Source: Candidatus Poseidoniia archaeon (lineage in GTDB: Archaea > Thermoplasmatota > Poseidoniia > MGIII > CG-Epi1). Taken from it: DNA of 64,000 nt. The notes under the pieces were generated by a model, which had not been told where the DNA came from, made no database searches, and worked only from the letters and a program-made list of their open reading frames with translations. The stretch is taken from the NCBI GenBank assembly GCA_030748895.1, contig JASMLC010000008.1, forward strand, positions 6,453-70,452, written 5' to 3'. The translations under genes and the position numbers were made by a program. Below, one piece after another: positions 19,113 through 50,345 of the stretch (within the stretch, counting starts at the first letter, position 1; every line of letters begins with the position of its first letter).

Positions 19113-19272
19113 AGCGGCCGCGACGCCGTGCTGTGTAACAAGCGGTGACGCCAGGCTGCGCCGATGAGTGACCGGAGGGAGCGAATTAGCGGCCGCGACG
19201 CCGTGCTGTGTAACAAGCGGTGACGCCAGGCTGCGCCGATGAGCGACCGGAGGGAGCGAATTAGCGGCCGCG
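19113..19272. repeat. 75-bp tandem repeat (2.1 copies), family R2
   Basis: Two copies (19113-19187 and 19188-19262) differ at about one base, and a partial third copy begins at 19263 with AGCGGCCGCG. The unit begins AGCGGCCGCGACGCCGTGCT and ends CGGAGGGAGCGAATT. The repeat supplies the TAA stop of uppS at 19261-19263 and fills the space up to the RND promoter. A diverged copy lies at 49651-49762. Confidence 0.92.
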
Positions 19273-20040
19273 CCGTCGCTGCCGCTGCTGGTAGGCACGG
19301 ATGGCGCGCAGGAAGTCCACCTTGCGCAGCGCCGGCCAGTAGACGTCGGCAAAGTAGAACTCCGAGTAGGCGAGCTGCCACAGCAGGAAATTGCTGACCC
19401 GCTCCTCGCCCGAGGTGCGCAGGATCAGGTCGGGGTCGGGCAGGTCGCCGGTGTAGAGGTGGCGCGAGACCATTTCGGTATCAATCTCGTCGGGCGCCAG
19501 TTCTCCTGCCTGCACCTTGCGTGCCAGCTGGCGCATCGCCTGGATGATTTCCTGGCGGCCACCGTAGGCGACGGCGATGTTGTAGCGGTAATCTTTGTAG
19601 TGCGCCGTCTTTTCCTCGGCGTACGCGATTGCATCGCGCACCCGCTCCGGCAGCAGCTCGCGGTGCCCCAGCGCGCAGACCCGCACGCGGCTGCCGTGGA
19701 TACGGGGGTCGTCGCCCACCTGCCGGAACGCGTCGGCGAAGAGATTCATTAGCGTCTCGAGCTCTTCCTTCGGGCGGTCGAGGTTCTCGGTCGAAAAGGC
19801 GTAGACCGTCAGGACGCGAATGCCCAGTTCCTGGCACCACTCCATCATCTCCTCCAGCTTGCCACGCCCGCGCAGATGGCCTTCGAACGGCGCGAGGCCA
19901 AGCTGCTCGGCGAAGCGGCGGTTGCCGTCCATGATGACCGCCAGATGGTGCGGCAGCGGCTCCTTACGCAGGTTGCGCACCAGTCGTTTCTGGTAGAGCG
20001 AATAGACCGGCCCCAGCAGTCGCCCCAGCCTGAAGAACAC
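19261..20040 (-). CDS. uppS: cis-Prenyltransferase (undecaprenyl/dolichyl diphosphate synthase family)
   Basis: This 259-residue enzyme condenses isopentenyl diphosphate in cis to make polyprenyl diphosphates, in archaea the dolichol-type carriers for glycosylation. Signatures are HLAVIMDGNRRFAEQLG with the catalytic Asp, HLRGRGKLEEMMEWCQELG, LTVYAFSTEN, and the substrate-binding DPDLILRTSGEERVSNFLLWQLAYSEFYF. Start GTG 20040 matches the family N-terminus and sits 24.5 nt from a shared symmetric TATA box. The frame is open upstream to 20481 but there overlaps the divergent methyltransferase gene. The stop codon lies inside the R2 repeat, so the Arg-rich last residues may have been altered by it. 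Confidence 0.93.
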   Translation of the reverse strand: MFFRLGRLLGPVYSLYQKRLVRNLRKEPLPHHLAVIMDGNRRFAEQLGLAPFEGHLRGRGKLEEMMEWCQELGIRVLTVYAFSTENLDRPKEELETLMNLFADAFRQVGDDPRIHGSRVRVCALGHRELLPERVRDAIAYAEEKTAHYKDYRYNIAVAYGGRQEIIQAMRQLARKVQAGELAPDEIDTEMVSRHLYTGDLPDPDLILRTSGEERVSNFLLWQLAYSEFYFADVYWPALRKVDFLRAIRAYQQRQRRRGR

Positions 20041-20088: not shown

Positions 20089-21129
20089 ATGGCAGGCGAG
20101 TGGGTCTTCGAGCTGGGCGGCGAGCAGCCGCAACTGGCGCACGCCGAGCTCGATGAACTGCTGACGGCGGCCGGCTGTGCGCCCGCTTTCACCGAGGCAG
20201 ACGGCCTGCGGCTGCGCTGCACCCTCGCACAGCCGCCACCGACCGGGCTGCTGGCGCGGCTGGGGATGGTGCGCAGCGGCGGCGAATTCGCCGCCGCTGG
20301 CTCGCTGACGGAGCTGGAAACGGCGGCGGTCGCCATCGACTTGGGCGGCGCGCGTTTTGCGGTGCGCTGCGCGCCCGGTGCGCTCAACCCGCAGGCGGTC
20401 AACCGGCGGCTCGGTGCCGCGCTGGCGAAGCACGGCCGCGTCGACCTCGAGCAGCCTGAAATCACGGTGCGCGTTTTCCAAGGCGACGCGCTCGAGTTAA
20501 TGCTCGAGCGCGAGCCGACCGGCTACCGCCGCTGCCTCGAACATCACCTGAACCGGCGGCCGCGCTTTGCGCCGGTCTCGCTGCCGCCACGGCTGGCGCG
20601 TGCGATGGTAAATCTGGCGCTCCCGTCAGGCGCTGCGGCAGGCGCTGCGGCAGGCGCCGAAGGCGATACTGCAGTCGCGGCCCCAACAGGCGACGGGCAA
20701 CTGCTCGACCCGTTCTGCGGCACCGGGGGGTTGCTGATTGAGGCGGCCGACTGCGGGCTGGCGGCGAGCGGCGGCGACTTCGACGGCGAGATGGTCGCCG
20801 CGACGCGCGAAAACCTGCAGCACTTTGGCTTCGCTGCGGAACTGGAGCAGGGCGACGCGGCCGCCGTGGTGCAGCGCGTGCGGCCGGCGGCAATCGCGAC
20901 CGACCCGCCCTACGGCCGCTCCGCGTCGACCGCGCGCGAGCCGCTCAGTGAGCTGCTCGCGCGCTTCGGCGCCGCCTGCGCGGAGGCGCTGCCGGCCGGC
21001 GGGCGGCTGGTGCTGGCGCTGCCCGATCCGGCGCTGCTGCCGCAGGCGGGCTTCAGCGAGCTGTTCCGCTGCGAGTGGTATGTCCACGGGTCGCTGACGC
21101 GGCACCTGCTGCTGCTCGAGCGCGACTAG
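20089..21129 (+). CDS. Trm11/TrmG10-like tRNA guanosine N2-methyltransferase
   Basis: This 346-residue protein has an N-terminal THUMP-like region (about 1-150) and a Rossmann methyltransferase domain. The fold's motifs are present: LLDPFCGTGGLLIEAA (AdoMet loop) and ATDPPYGRSAS, the catalytic DPPY motif of N2-guanosine methylases. The usual target of this family is G10 of tRNA. An Ala/Gly-rich insert of about 22 residues (AAGAAAGAEGDTAVAAPTG), coded by dispersed element R1, lies just before the DPFCGTGG motif where relatives have a short loop. ATG 20089 fits the TATA spacing. The 3' end overlaps the convergent PKD gene by 4 nt. Confidence 0.86.
   Translation: MAGEWVFELGGEQPQLAHAELDELLTAAGCAPAFTEADGLRLRCTLAQPPPTGLLARLGMVRSGGEFAAAGSLTELETAAVAIDLGGARFAVRCAPGALNPQAVNRRLGAALAKHGRVDLEQPEITVRVFQGDALELMLEREPTGYRRCLEHHLNRRPRFAPVSLPPRLARAMVNLALPSGAAAGAAAGAEGDTAVAAPTGDGQLLDPFCGTGGLLIEAADCGLAASGGDFDGEMVAATRENLQHFGFAAELEQGDAAAVVQRVRPAAIATDPPYGRSASTAREPLSELLARFGAACAEALPAGGRLVLALPDPALLPQAGFSELFRCEWYVHGSLTRHLLLLERD
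20622..20697 (+). repeat. Dispersed hairpin element R1, copy A (inside the methyltransferase gene)
   Basis: This copy starts CCCGTCAGGCGCTGCGG and ends CCCCAACAGGCGACGGG, giving CCCGTC/GACGGG inverted ends. It carries a 12-bp internal duplication (CAGGCGCTGCGG). The core GCAGTCGCGGCCCCAACAGG is shared with the copies at 28475 and 49528, and more weakly with the one at 23063. It is read through in frame. Confidence 0.85.
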
Positions 21130-22442: not shown

Positions 22443-23234
22443 ATGGGCGACCCGAGATTTCCCCGCAAGCATTACGATACTCCATCGCACCCCTGGCAGA
22501 AGGAGCGCATCGAGAAGGAGAGTGCGCTGGTCCACCAGTACGGACTCAAGAACAAGCGCGAAATCTGGAAGGCCGGTACAAGGGTGCGGCAGATGCGACA
22601 GCAGGCACGAAAACTCACCGCCACCGCCTCGGAGCAGGCGCAGAAGGAACGCAGGCTGTTGCTCGGCCGACTAGACCGGCTCGGACTGCTCGACCGCGGT
22701 TCCGACCTGGAGGACGTGCTGCGCATGGATGTCGAAAAGCTGCTTGACCGGCGACTACAAACGCAAGTTTACCTGCAGGGACTCGCTTCTACACCGAAAC
22801 AGTCACGGCAACTGATTACGCACGGCCACATCACCATCGATGGCGCCGTAGCACGGGTTCCCGGCATGCTGGTCACCCGCATGCAGGAGAAGCAGATTGC
22901 CTACTTCAGCGGCTCGCCGCTCATGAGCGACCTCCACCCGGTCCGGCCCAAGCCGCGCACCGACGCCGATTTCGACACAGAGCCGGCAGAGGACGAGGCA
23001 CCAGCGGCCCCGGCAGCGGAAGAGAAGGCTAAAGCCTCCGACGAGAAACAGGCGGAAGCACCGGCAGGCGCCGGAAGCGATGCCGCAGTCGCGACCTCAA
23101 CCGACGAGGCGAAGCCAAAGGCGAAGAAGACTGCTGCTAAAAAGAAGGAAAAACCCGCTGCAAAGGCTGAAAAATCAGCGGCTAAAAAATCAGCTAAACC
23201 TGCCCCGAAGGCCGCCAGCGAGGAGAAGAAATGA
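22443..23234 (+). CDS. rps4: 30S ribosomal protein S4 with long Ala/Lys-rich tail
   Basis: This 263-residue primary 16S rRNA-binding protein begins [20 protein letters not shown], typical of archaeal S4. An S4 RNA-binding domain with [17 protein letters not shown] and [11 protein letters not shown] lies at about 105-150. From about residue 172 to the end is a low-complexity tail of acidic/Ala then Lys/Ala repeats ([18 protein letters not shown]), making it clearly longer than the usual 170-190 residues. Part of the tail ([13 protein letters not shown]) is encoded by a copy of dispersed element R1. Start ATG 22443 follows the S13 stop. The frame upstream to 22395 is S13 shadow. Confidence 0.95.
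23063..23105 (+). repeat. Dispersed element R1, copy D (diverged, inside rps4)
   Basis: The stretch beginning GGCAGGCGCCGGAAGCGATG and continuing CCGCAGTCGCGACCTCAAC matches the R1 core with a few substitutions, in the same orientation and reading frame as copy A. It is the weakest of the four copies. Confidence 0.6.
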
Positions 23235-27963: not shown

Positions 27964-28998
27964 GTGGCAGCTACGAATTCTATCGAAACTGACATGCAAC
28001 GCTTTGGCGCGCTGTTCGCCGCCGCGACCGACGCCAGCGAGGACGCGCAGCCGCTTGCGGCCGGCAGCGTTATCGTCGCTGGCATGGGCGGCTCGGGCAT
28101 CGCCGGCCGGCTGGCGCAGGCGCTCGCGGAGCGGTGCGGTGGGCTGCGCGTCAGCGCCTGGAGCGACTACGGGCTGCCGGCATGGGCCGACGGCAGCGAG
28201 CGGCTCATCGCGGTTTCGTATTCGGGCAACACCGCCGAGACGCTCTCAGGCGTCGAGCGCGCCATCGAGCTGGGATGCGGCTGGGAGGCGATTACTACCG
28301 GCGGCCGCCTCGCCGCACTGGGGCGGGAGTATGGCGCGCCCGTGACCGCCATCGAGCCGGGGCACCAGCCGCGCGCCGCGCTGCCGCTGCTGCTGGTGCC
28401 GCTGCTGCAGCGGCTGCCGATTGCCGGGATTGCGGCGCAACTGACCGAAGCGGGGGAAGTGCTTGGCGCCGCGGTATCGCCTGTTGGGGCCGCGACTGCG
28501 GCATCGCCTCCGGCGCCGGCCGCAGCGCCTGACGGGGGCGAGAGCGGCGCCACCGCCAGCCCCGCCGCGATTGCGGCGCAGCTCGCCGGCAAGCTGCCGT
28601 TCATCTATGGTGCCGGCGGCCTCGCGACGGTGGCGTACCGCTGGCGCTGCCAGATTGCGGAGAACGCCAAGCAACTGGCGGTGCACCACGCGCTGCCCGA
28701 GCTGGACCACAACGAGATTGTCGGCTGGGCCTCCCCGCCTCCGAACGCGGTCGTCGTCGCGCTGCGCGAGCCGGACGAGCCGGCCCGCGTCGCGGCGCGC
28801 TGGAAAGCGACGCGCGCGGCGGCGTGGCGCGACGTCCCGGTCATCGAGTGCCGGGCACGTGGCGAAAGCCCGCTGGCGCGCTGGCTCTCGCTGGTGCATC
28901 TGGGAGACACGGTCTCGGTGGAGCTGGCGCACCTCAACGGGGTGGAGCCGACCCCGGTGAGGGTGATTGAGGAGCTGAAGCGGAGGCTGGATGACTGA
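27964..28998 (+). CDS. Bifunctional phosphoglucose/phosphomannose isomerase
   Basis: This 344-residue SIS-fold enzyme interconverts fructose-6-P with glucose-6-P and mannose-6-P. SIS motifs are VAGMGGSGIAG (38-48) and VSYSGNTAET. The PGI/PMI catalytic region has ENAKQLAVHHALPELDHNEI, with the expected Glu near 233 and His near 250. An insert rich in Ala, Pro and Gly (about residues 171-200, including SPVGAATAASPPAPAAAP) separates the two SIS domains and coincides with dispersed element R1 in reverse orientation. Start is GTG 27964. Its stop overlaps the ATG of carS. It feeds sugar phosphates to the GlmS route and central metabolism. Confidence 0.9.
   Translation: MAATNSIETDMQRFGALFAAATDASEDAQPLAAGSVIVAGMGGSGIAGRLAQALAERCGGLRVSAWSDYGLPAWADGSERLIAVSYSGNTAETLSGVERAIELGCGWEAITTGGRLAALGREYGAPVTAIEPGHQPRAALPLLLVPLLQRLPIAGIAAQLTEAGEVLGAAVSPVGAATAASPPAPAAAPDGGESGATASPAAIAAQLAGKLPFIYGAGGLATVAYRWRCQIAENAKQLAVHHALPELDHNEIVGWASPPPNAVVVALREPDEPARVAARWKATRAAAWRDVPVIECRARGESPLARWLSLVHLGDTVSVELAHLNGVEPTPVRVIEELKRRLDD
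28475..28536 (-). repeat. Dispersed hairpin element R1, copy B (inside the PGI/PMI gene, reversed)
   Basis: On the minus strand it starts CCCGTCAGGCGCTGCGG and ends CCCCAACAGGCGATA, matching copy A apart from lacking its 12-bp duplication. CTGCGGC and GCCGCAG form a 7-bp stem within it. It is translated in frame although reversed relative to copy A. Confidence 0.85.
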
Positions 28999-35012: not shown

Positions 35013-35111
35013 GCGGTGCGAGCGGCGGGGGATTTTAGCGGCTGCGGCGCACCGGCCGCAGGCCGGGGTGACGCCAAGCCGCGCCGCGGAGCAGCGGCTG
35101 CGGCAGTCCCA
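35013..35111. other. GC-rich spacer with inverted and dispersed repeat fragments
   Basis: This 99-bp spacer holds a TATA-like GATTTTAG (35031-35038) for the metalloprotease gene, two copies of AGCGGCTGCGG, a hairpin-forming CCGGCCGCAGGCCGG, and GGTGACGCCAAGCCGCGCCG, which resembles part of repeat R2. The end, CAGTCCCATCAGGCG, is reminiscent of an R1 edge. It may be a degraded composite of the two repeat families. Confidence 0.35.
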
Positions 35112-36137
35112 TCAGGCGTCGCGCAGGAACCGCAGGTAGAGTTCGTAAACCCTCCGCACCGACGCCAGCGAGACCCACTCCCCGGGCGCGTGCAGGTTGC
35201 CGCCTTCGGGACCGAGGATGGCGGTCGGCGCGACGGTGGCGAGGAAGTTGAAGTCGCCGACCGATGACGAATCGCCGGGCGGGTGGCCGCTCAGCGCCAG
35301 CAGCCGCTCGACCGACGGTGTGCGCTCGGCCGCGTACGCTTCGGGCGGCGGCGTCGGCCGCTCCGCCTCCGCGACCGCCAACCGTGGGTCGAGCTGTCTC
35401 AGCGCCTCGCGGGCGGCGTCGCGCGACTCGCCCGGCGCGAGATGGCGGTCGACGACCAGCAGCGCGTCCTGCGGGTGGCTCAGCCCGCGGGCGCGTGACG
35501 TGAACTCCAGCACAACCTGGCTGCCCGTGACCGCCATCGCTTCGATTTCGAGTGCGATTCCGGCCATGCGCGCCAGCGCACTCTCGCCCTCGCGCGTAGC
35601 GTGGCCGCCTTCAGTCTCGAGCGCAAGGCGGAAAACTGCGCGGCCGGGCGCCGACAGCACGACTCGCTCGCCGCTCGGCTCGGGCACCAGCACCAGCTCG
35701 GGCGCCAGTTCGCGCAGCCGCGGCAGCGCAGCGTTCACCCCGCGGCACCAACCTTCCTCGTCACAGGTCAGCAGCAGCGAGAGCGGCCGCTGGCCGCTCT
35801 CGCCAGCGCAGGCGCGGAACGTTTCGACCGCAATCGCAAGCCCCGCCTGCATGTCGGCGGCGCCGAGGCCGACGAGGTTGCCGCCTTCGCGGCGCGGTGC
35901 GTGCGGCGCTTCCCAGCCGGGGGCGGGCGGCACCGTGTCGAGGTGCGCGCAGAGCAGGAGCGGGGCGCCGTCGCCGGGGGCGTGGCACCAGAGATTCACG
36001 GTGCCGCCCTCCACAGGCTGTAGCTCCGACTCCCAGTCGGAAAGGTAATCGGCGAGGAACTTTGCTTTCGCAGTCTCGTCGCCCATCACCGATGGAATCG
36101 CGACCAGTTGCTCGAGCAGCCGCTCCAGTTCAGGCAA
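35112..36137 (-). CDS. M20-family metallopeptidase/deacylase
   Basis: This 341-residue zinc hydrolase belongs to the ArgE/DapE/CPG2 superfamily. Metal-site segments are LLLCAHLDTVPP, GLGAADMQAGLA, the general-base pair in TCDEEGWCRGV, a VPEPSG ligand and the C-terminal GPEGGNLHAPGEWV. The domain order is catalytic, dimerisation insert, catalytic. The substrate is unassigned; candidates are N-acyl amino acids (ArgE/LysK-type deacylation) or small peptides. The start is TTG 36137, which overlaps birA by 8 nt. It is the last gene of the DP2-birA-M20 operon. Confidence 0.85.
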   Translation of the reverse strand: MPELERLLEQLVAIPSVMGDETAKAKFLADYLSDWESELQPVEGGTVNLWCHAPGDGAPLLLCAHLDTVPPAPGWEAPHAPRREGGNLVGLGAADMQAGLAIAVETFRACAGESGQRPLSLLLTCDEEGWCRGVNAALPRLRELAPELVLVPEPSGERVVLSAPGRAVFRLALETEGGHATREGESALARMAGIALEIEAMAVTGSQVVLEFTSRARGLSHPQDALLVVDRHLAPGESRDAAREALRQLDPRLAVAEAERPTPPPEAYAAERTPSVERLLALSGHPPGDSSSVGDFNFLATVAPTAILGPEGGNLHAPGEWVSLASVRRVYELYLRFLRDA

Positions 36138-49527: not shown

Positions 49528-49578
49528 GTCGCCTGTTGGGGCCGCGACTGCGGCATCGCTCTGGCGCGCCGCAGCACC
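49528..49578 (-). repeat. Dispersed hairpin element R1, copy C (intergenic)
   Basis: On the minus strand it carries GCGATGCCGCAGTCGCGGCC followed by CCAACAGGCGAC, identical to copy B over the core. CTGCGGC and GCCGCAG form a 7-bp stem. This is the only R1 copy found outside a coding region. Confidence 0.85.
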
Positions 49579-49650
49579 TTGCGGGTATCCGTAAGACGAC
49601 CCGCGGACGGCGCGCCGGAAGTGATGTCGTGTGGCGGCGCTGCTGCGTCA

Positions 49651-49762
49651 GCTCTCTCCGGTCGCTGACTTCGCGGGCGCAGCCTGGCGTCAGTCCCTGA
49701 CGCCGTGGCGCAGTCTGGCGTCACCGCTTGTTTCACAGCGCGGCGACGCGGCTGCTACGGCC
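49651..49762 (-). repeat. Diverged copy of repeat R2, expanded
   Basis: This region matches the reverse complement of the 75-bp unit at 19188-19262 (CTCCGGTCGCT, GCGCAGCCTGGCGTCA, CCGCTTGTTTCACAGC). It carries an internal insertion of about 31 bp that duplicates CGCAGTCTGGCGTCA and creates a GGCGTCA/TGACGCC hairpin. It overlaps the stop codon of guaAA, as the other copy overlaps that of uppS. Confidence 0.7.
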
Positions 49763-50345
49763 GCCACGCTTGCGCGTGTTCAAGGAAATTGGTGAAGAGC
49801 TCGGCACCGTATTCCGAATGCTCGACTTCGGGATGGTACTGCACCCCCGCGTACGGCAGCTTCCGGTGCTGCATCGCCTGCACCACGCAGTCGTCGCTCG
49901 ATGCCAGGATGTCGAACCCGTCGGGCAGCCGCGTCACTTCGTCGTTATGGCTCTCCCAGGCGGTGAACTCGTCGGGCAGCCCCGCCATCAGCCAGCCCCG
50001 CTCGGCGACCGAGACCAGCGCCGCGCCGAACTCCGGCACGCGCGCAGGGCCGGCGGCACCGCCGAAGTGGGCCGCCATGTACTGGTGGCCGACGCAGATG
50101 CCGAGAATCGGCCAGTGCGCGGCGTCGAGGTACTCCGCCGTAAGGCCGAGCGCGTCCGCTTCCGACTCGATGCGCGGCGCACCGCCCGAGAGCACCAGCG
50201 CGCGAAAGCGCTCCAGTTCCGAGGGGGGCGTCGTGTTCGGCACGATTTCGGCCGCGCAGCCGAGGTAGTTCAGCACGCGCCATTCGCGGTGCGTCCACTG
50301 GCCGCCGTTGTCGATGACCGCGACTGCCATCCCGGAGAAGCTCAC
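49755..50345 (-). CDS. guaAA: GMP synthase glutamine amidotransferase subunit
   Basis: This 196-residue class I glutaminase supplies ammonia to the separate archaeal GMP synthase ATPase subunit. Catalytic residues are Cys84 in LGICVGHQYM and His171/Glu173 in VQYHPEVEHSEYG. The early AVIDNGGQWTHREWRVLNYLG is typical of GuaAA. Start GTG 50345 has a TATA-like box 23-30 nt upstream; ATG 50330 matches the usual family N-terminus and is a close alternative. The stop codon lies in repeat R2. The ATP-pyrophosphatase partner is not in the window. Confidence 0.9.
   Translation of the reverse strand: MSFSGMAVAVIDNGGQWTHREWRVLNYLGCAAEIVPNTTPPSELERFRALVLSGGAPRIESEADALGLTAEYLDAAHWPILGICVGHQYMAAHFGGAAGPARVPEFGAALVSVAERGWLMAGLPDEFTAWESHNDEVTRLPDGFDILASSDDCVVQAMQHRKLPYAGVQYHPEVEHSEYGAELFTNFLEHAQAWRP

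Follow-up and report, generated by a model that had tools for sequence, protein, structure and literature searches.

The stretch of DNA analysed here, referred to as the window, comprises 64,000 nucleotides (C8:6453-70452) of the genome of a Marine Group III archaeon, an assembly of 1.41 Mb in 72 contigs. Within it, uppS, encoding polyprenyl diphosphate synthase (19261-20001, minus strand), borders a tandem repeat at 19113-19272, for which TRF reports a period of 75, 2.1 copies and 98% matches. The repeat consists of two units of 75 bp arranged head-to-tail on the plus strand downstream of uppS, unit 1 at 19113-19187, with a palindromic core at 19113-19161, and unit 2 at 19188-19262; the two are identical at 74 of 75 positions, differing by a single base, which agrees with the near-identical pair described in an earlier note on this DNA. 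The placement of the uppS TAA stop inside the repeat unit was also correct, as the tail end of unit 2 supplies two of its bases.

Two further claims of that note, that a partial third copy follows and that the end of uppS has been replaced, do not hold. The bases at 19263-19272 read AGCGGCCGCG, or CGCGGCCGCT in the sense of the gene, and because congeners carry nearly identical last codons immediately 5' of their own TGA, this segment belongs to the original end of uppS, the insertion target, and not to the element. The coding sequence is intact and the protein end VDFLRAIRAYQQRQRRRGR* is retained without truncation, the sole change being that of the stop from TGA to TAA. The old uppS end happens to resemble the end of the element itself, which is CGCGGCTGCT in other copies.

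A diverged copy of the element lies at 49648-49757 on the minus strand, at the stop of guaAA, which encodes the glutamine amidotransferase subunit of GMP synthase (49755-50345, minus strand). In a whole-genome search it matched the uppS unit on the opposite strand over 51 bp with 90% identity (E = 1.3e-13). Its head end provides the TAG stop of guaAA, which sits at the element edge, and a duplicate of TGACGCCAGGCTGCGCC inside the element adds a hairpin in which the second TGACGCCAGGCTGCGCC pairs with the preceding CGGCGTCAG, bearing out the diverged partner with a gene stop and a hairpin-making duplication that had been proposed. A third, diverged copy in the window (35034-35085, plus strand; E = 0.006) lies about 24 bp past the stop of a gene for an M20 peptidase (35112-36137, minus strand).

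The guaAA copy is adjoined at 49529-49585 (plus strand) by a member of a separate repeat family, as had been noted for the spacer at 49.5-49.8 kb. This second family, about 58 bp long (TCGCCTGTTGGGGCCGCGACTGCGGCATCGCC...) and present in about ten copies in the genome, also occurs in the window at 20636-20693, 23051-23107 and 28477-28534. Three of those in the window are in-frame parts of genes for an RlmL-like methyltransferase, an S4-domain protein and phosphoglucose isomerase, which makes this archaeal family RPE-like in its intragenic placement. Two species (G000 C6:72142-72173, L186; G002 C34:15726-15757, L173) share a copy of it at an apparently identical site with similar flanks, and that insertion would therefore predate the split of the species. 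Additionally, 81 bp in another congener (L171, G003 C24:764-844) are identical to window positions 28465-28545, while other loci compared are about 70-76% alike; a cross-binned contig or a recent transfer is a possible source of this identity.

Distribution and structure of the element

Taken as DNA and covariance-model search matches in a draft, the census of the genome comprises seven units at six loci, plus the weaker copy beside the M20 peptidase gene. The best loci are uppS (two units), guaAA, C2:79979-80067 and C2:75375-75439, and copies at unrelated loci match with E values of 1e-9 to 1e-13. Two diverged copies, C1:69101 and C3:30434, gave E values of 0.003 and 0.02 with a first covariance model that contained neither, and about 2e-6 with a second model that included both. 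One copy was found in a congener (G001 C66:9559; E 3e-6 with a model that did not contain it). The copy number stands at about 6-9 loci in 1.4 Mb. Directly after the diverged copy on C1 comes another degenerate hairpin, built in a similar way, AGCAGCCGC-TGGCC...GGCCA...GGTTGCGC (L082 1570-1650; C1, about 69170-69250).

Beyond the genus, nothing convincing was detected in the family or class among 60 genomes searched by DNA and 25 searched by covariance model. The exact element pattern had no match in GTDB genome contigs, an Rfam search returned only noise, and a search of plasmids and phages gave no match to the element. In viral contigs a 20-mer match fell inside an unrelated long reading frame and was taken as chance, and a stricter pattern gave zero matches there.

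The core of the element is a two-tier palindrome, composed of GCAGCC, an inner stem, a variable loop, the other inner stem, a CA bulge and GGCTGC, and a tail of about 25 bp comes after the core. Over the seven cores compared, pairing holds in 91% of the cells and drops to 17-49% when the partners are slid by 1-3 columns, and in this palindromic, hairpin-forming character the element matches REPs. The folding z-scores are -4.8 for the C2:75375 core and -3.3 for guaAA, with a modest -1.7 for the uppS core. By reading, the inner stems vary among copies (TCGCCGC/GCGGTGA, TGTC/GACA and TGTC/GGCA); many shuffles reach at least the column-wise covariation observed, and compensatory changes are almost absent from the stems. 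A palindrome is present, and selection on RNA structure is without evidence.

In several copies, stop codons read outward from both ends of the element, the head offering TAGC(A/G)GCC and the tail, when entered from the gene, T|AAT. A stop codon interrupted by an insertion is thus immediately replaced by another. The head ends are TTAGCGGCC at uppS, GTAGCAGCC at guaAA, TAGCGCAGCAGCC at C2:80015 and GCAGCAGCC at C2:75375; only guaAA has a GTAG head, and the GTAG (or GT(A/G)G) signature of the REP superfamily is thus not a property of the element. An integron attC site was also considered and dropped, since by reading the unit has no GTTRRRY partner site.

Empty sites and position relative to genes

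The element is absent from every congener in which the site could be read, namely from three at uppS (G002, G003 and G004), one at guaAA (G004), two at the zinc-ribbon locus (G001 and G002) and three at the S8/MGMT locus (G002, G003 and G004); in G003 and G005 the region downstream of guaAA is diverged and contains no element. Its absence from the same junctions in relatives shows that these copies represent lineage-specific insertions.

The individual sites reveal what each insertion changed. In its three readable congeners, uppS ends in ...RRRG(R/L) TGA and is followed about 35 bp on by an MMPL transporter gene, while in the genome studied here the element lies between the T and the GA, yielding TAA and a protein end like that in G004 and G003. 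At C2:80015, genes for an S8 protease and MGMT, which in G003 and G004 converge and share some 18 bp at their 3' ends, are separated by the element, the protease stop having passed from TAG to TAA and MGMT ending at the head TAG. The copy at C2:75375 (L050 2379-2432) comes after the TGA of a gene for a beta-propeller/zinc-ribbon protein, and the last 24 bp or so of this gene are near-perfectly repeated on the far side of the element; G001 and G002 have neither the element nor this repeat. For guaAA, G004 has the end WEG* and a spacer of about 57 bp, as compared with WRP* and a TAG at the element head here, where the spacer is about 250 bp longer and is filled by the element and the second repeat. 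The flanking duplications are unequal, being about 10 bp at uppS and about 24 bp at the zinc-ribbon gene, with none clear elsewhere.

These comparisons also bear on whether the repeat could be an artefact of assembly or binning. The draft is in 72 contigs, and a tandem of 75 bp is prone to being collapsed or expanded in error; however, one base distinguishes the tandem units, single diverged copies stand at independent loci on two contigs, and the congeners align on both flanks, which makes an artefact highly improbable.

The genome-wide search that had been proposed recovered further copies, and at six of the eight loci (those of this genome and the one in G001) the element is situated 0-24 bp after a stop codon. 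The distance is 0 at uppS, guaAA and both sides of S8/MGMT, and 0-1 bp at the zinc-ribbon gene; measured to the element core, it is about 24 bp for the M20 peptidase and 17-20 bp for EF1-beta in G001. The location within about 20 bp of gene 3' ends and the element-supplied stop are both features of REPs. The diverged copy on C1 lies between divergent genes and that on C3 in the spacer that separates prefoldin from a DHH gene, and at none of the eight loci does the element interrupt a gene. Its orientation is mixed, guaAA and MGMT reading into the head and uppS, S8, zinc ribbon and EF1-beta into the tail.

Placement of this kind would also be expected of an RNA device at gene 3' ends, whose hairpin terminates transcription or shields the 3' ends of mRNAs and which is kept at the genes that gain from it, and several copies do fold as stable hairpins. 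Archaeal termination, however, relies on U-tracts, and a hairpin is not strictly necessary for it (PMC8716108), and no U-tract of four or more was found: the longest T run is 2 at uppS and 3 at guaAA, and no T4 occurs within 260 bp after the uppS stop. Lacking a U-tract and occurring in both orientations relative to genes, the element does not look like an archaeal terminator. It is also absent in congeners, its stems show almost no covariation, and two of the diverged copies are found ahead of gene starts or in the gap between divergent genes. The role in termination or mRNA stability suggested in the earlier note is therefore unsupported, and we regard such a device as improbable.

Alternatively, the insertion machinery may recognise a sequence or structure at stop codons. 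Three reconstructed insertion points follow CT (GCCGCT|GA, CGCGACT|AG and CACT|), all four well-conserved loci of the genome lie 0-1 bp from a stop, and stop codons read out of both element ends. With empty spacers of about 35, 57 and 46 bp at three loci, the rough chance of all three insertions falling within 3 bp is about 1e-3. Nevertheless, the loci are only a handful, the pattern was noticed first and tested afterwards, and what remains of these short spacers is taken up by promoters and starts, so that the pattern could result from selection alone. Active targeting thus appears unlikely, if slightly less so than the RNA device. Of the suggestion that the element targets or forms gene 3' ends, the association with them stands, the empty sites showing insertion, while active stop targeting is inseparable from survival bias with eight loci.

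Relationship to known elements and biological meaning

Bacterial REPs are found mostly between convergent or unidirectional genes, less than 20 bp from 3' ends, and the termini of GTAG REPs often give flanking genes a TAG stop (PMC3733652); archaea are named in that article solely in its reference list. The present element resembles the GTAG-/CGTC-tagged REPs (PMC3733652) and the RAYT-linked REPs (PMC2817692) in being a short palindrome near 3' ends, with TAG-supplying termini and an arrangement in clusters or dimers. It differs from them in its archaeal host, in its two-tier stem with a CA bulge and a tail of about 25 bp, in the unconserved GTAG head, and in its occupancy of about 6-9 loci, whereas bacterial REPs usually exceed 100 copies per genome (PMC2817692). 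The search for a parent insertion sequence covered PF01797, and no Y1/IS200 (RAYT) transposase of this family was found in the six genomes of the genus, which are drafts 64-97% complete, with a control search matching 5 of 14 named genomes. The placement is REP-like, but the GTAG head, the RAYT gene and the high copy number do not agree; the element is therefore classed as REP/MITE-like and kept apart from the RAYT-REP family.

Archaeal MITEs, for example those of Sulfolobus and Halobacterium (reviewed in PMC10969869), are likewise small, non-autonomous and interspersed, with inverted repeats and empty sites in relatives. Typical MITEs share their terminal inverted repeats with an autonomous IS and have a target duplication of constant length; the present element has no known parent insertion sequence and no target duplication of fixed length at the loci compared, and measures only 65-110 bp. 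A DDE transposon differs in the same respect, as the flanking duplications here are not of one length. Rickettsia palindromic elements are also palindromic and enter gene ends or reading frames, although they lie in frame within genes and the present element lies after stops.

Taken together, the 75-bp unit is probably a copy of a low-copy, non-autonomous, palindromic REP/MITE-like mobile element whose insertions at gene 3' ends do little harm. Against this reading stand the failure of the PF01797 search to find a mobilising enzyme, the low copy number, the unequal flanking duplications and the modest fold at uppS. The element would move through recognition of its hairpin by an enzyme encoded elsewhere. 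Insertions may initially have been spread more widely, those at 3' ends surviving because they break neither gene nor promoter, and the element would have no required function at these genes. The tandem at uppS may be a later product, formed when the end of the element and the uppS target resembling it served as the limits of a duplication.

A more far-reaching version, which we consider improbable, is an archaeal mobile element built to enter stop codons, in which the reaction selects stops, the ends rewrite them and the element can multiply in a genome densely packed with genes while leaving these intact; stop-codon targeting, if shown, would be a new insertion strategy. The REP/MITE-like reading extends the REP-like pattern, in which short palindromes lie by stop codons and supply the stop, to Marine Group III archaea, here in one genome of about 1.4 Mb, where sharp empty sites in relatives reveal the effect of insertion on the stop codon.
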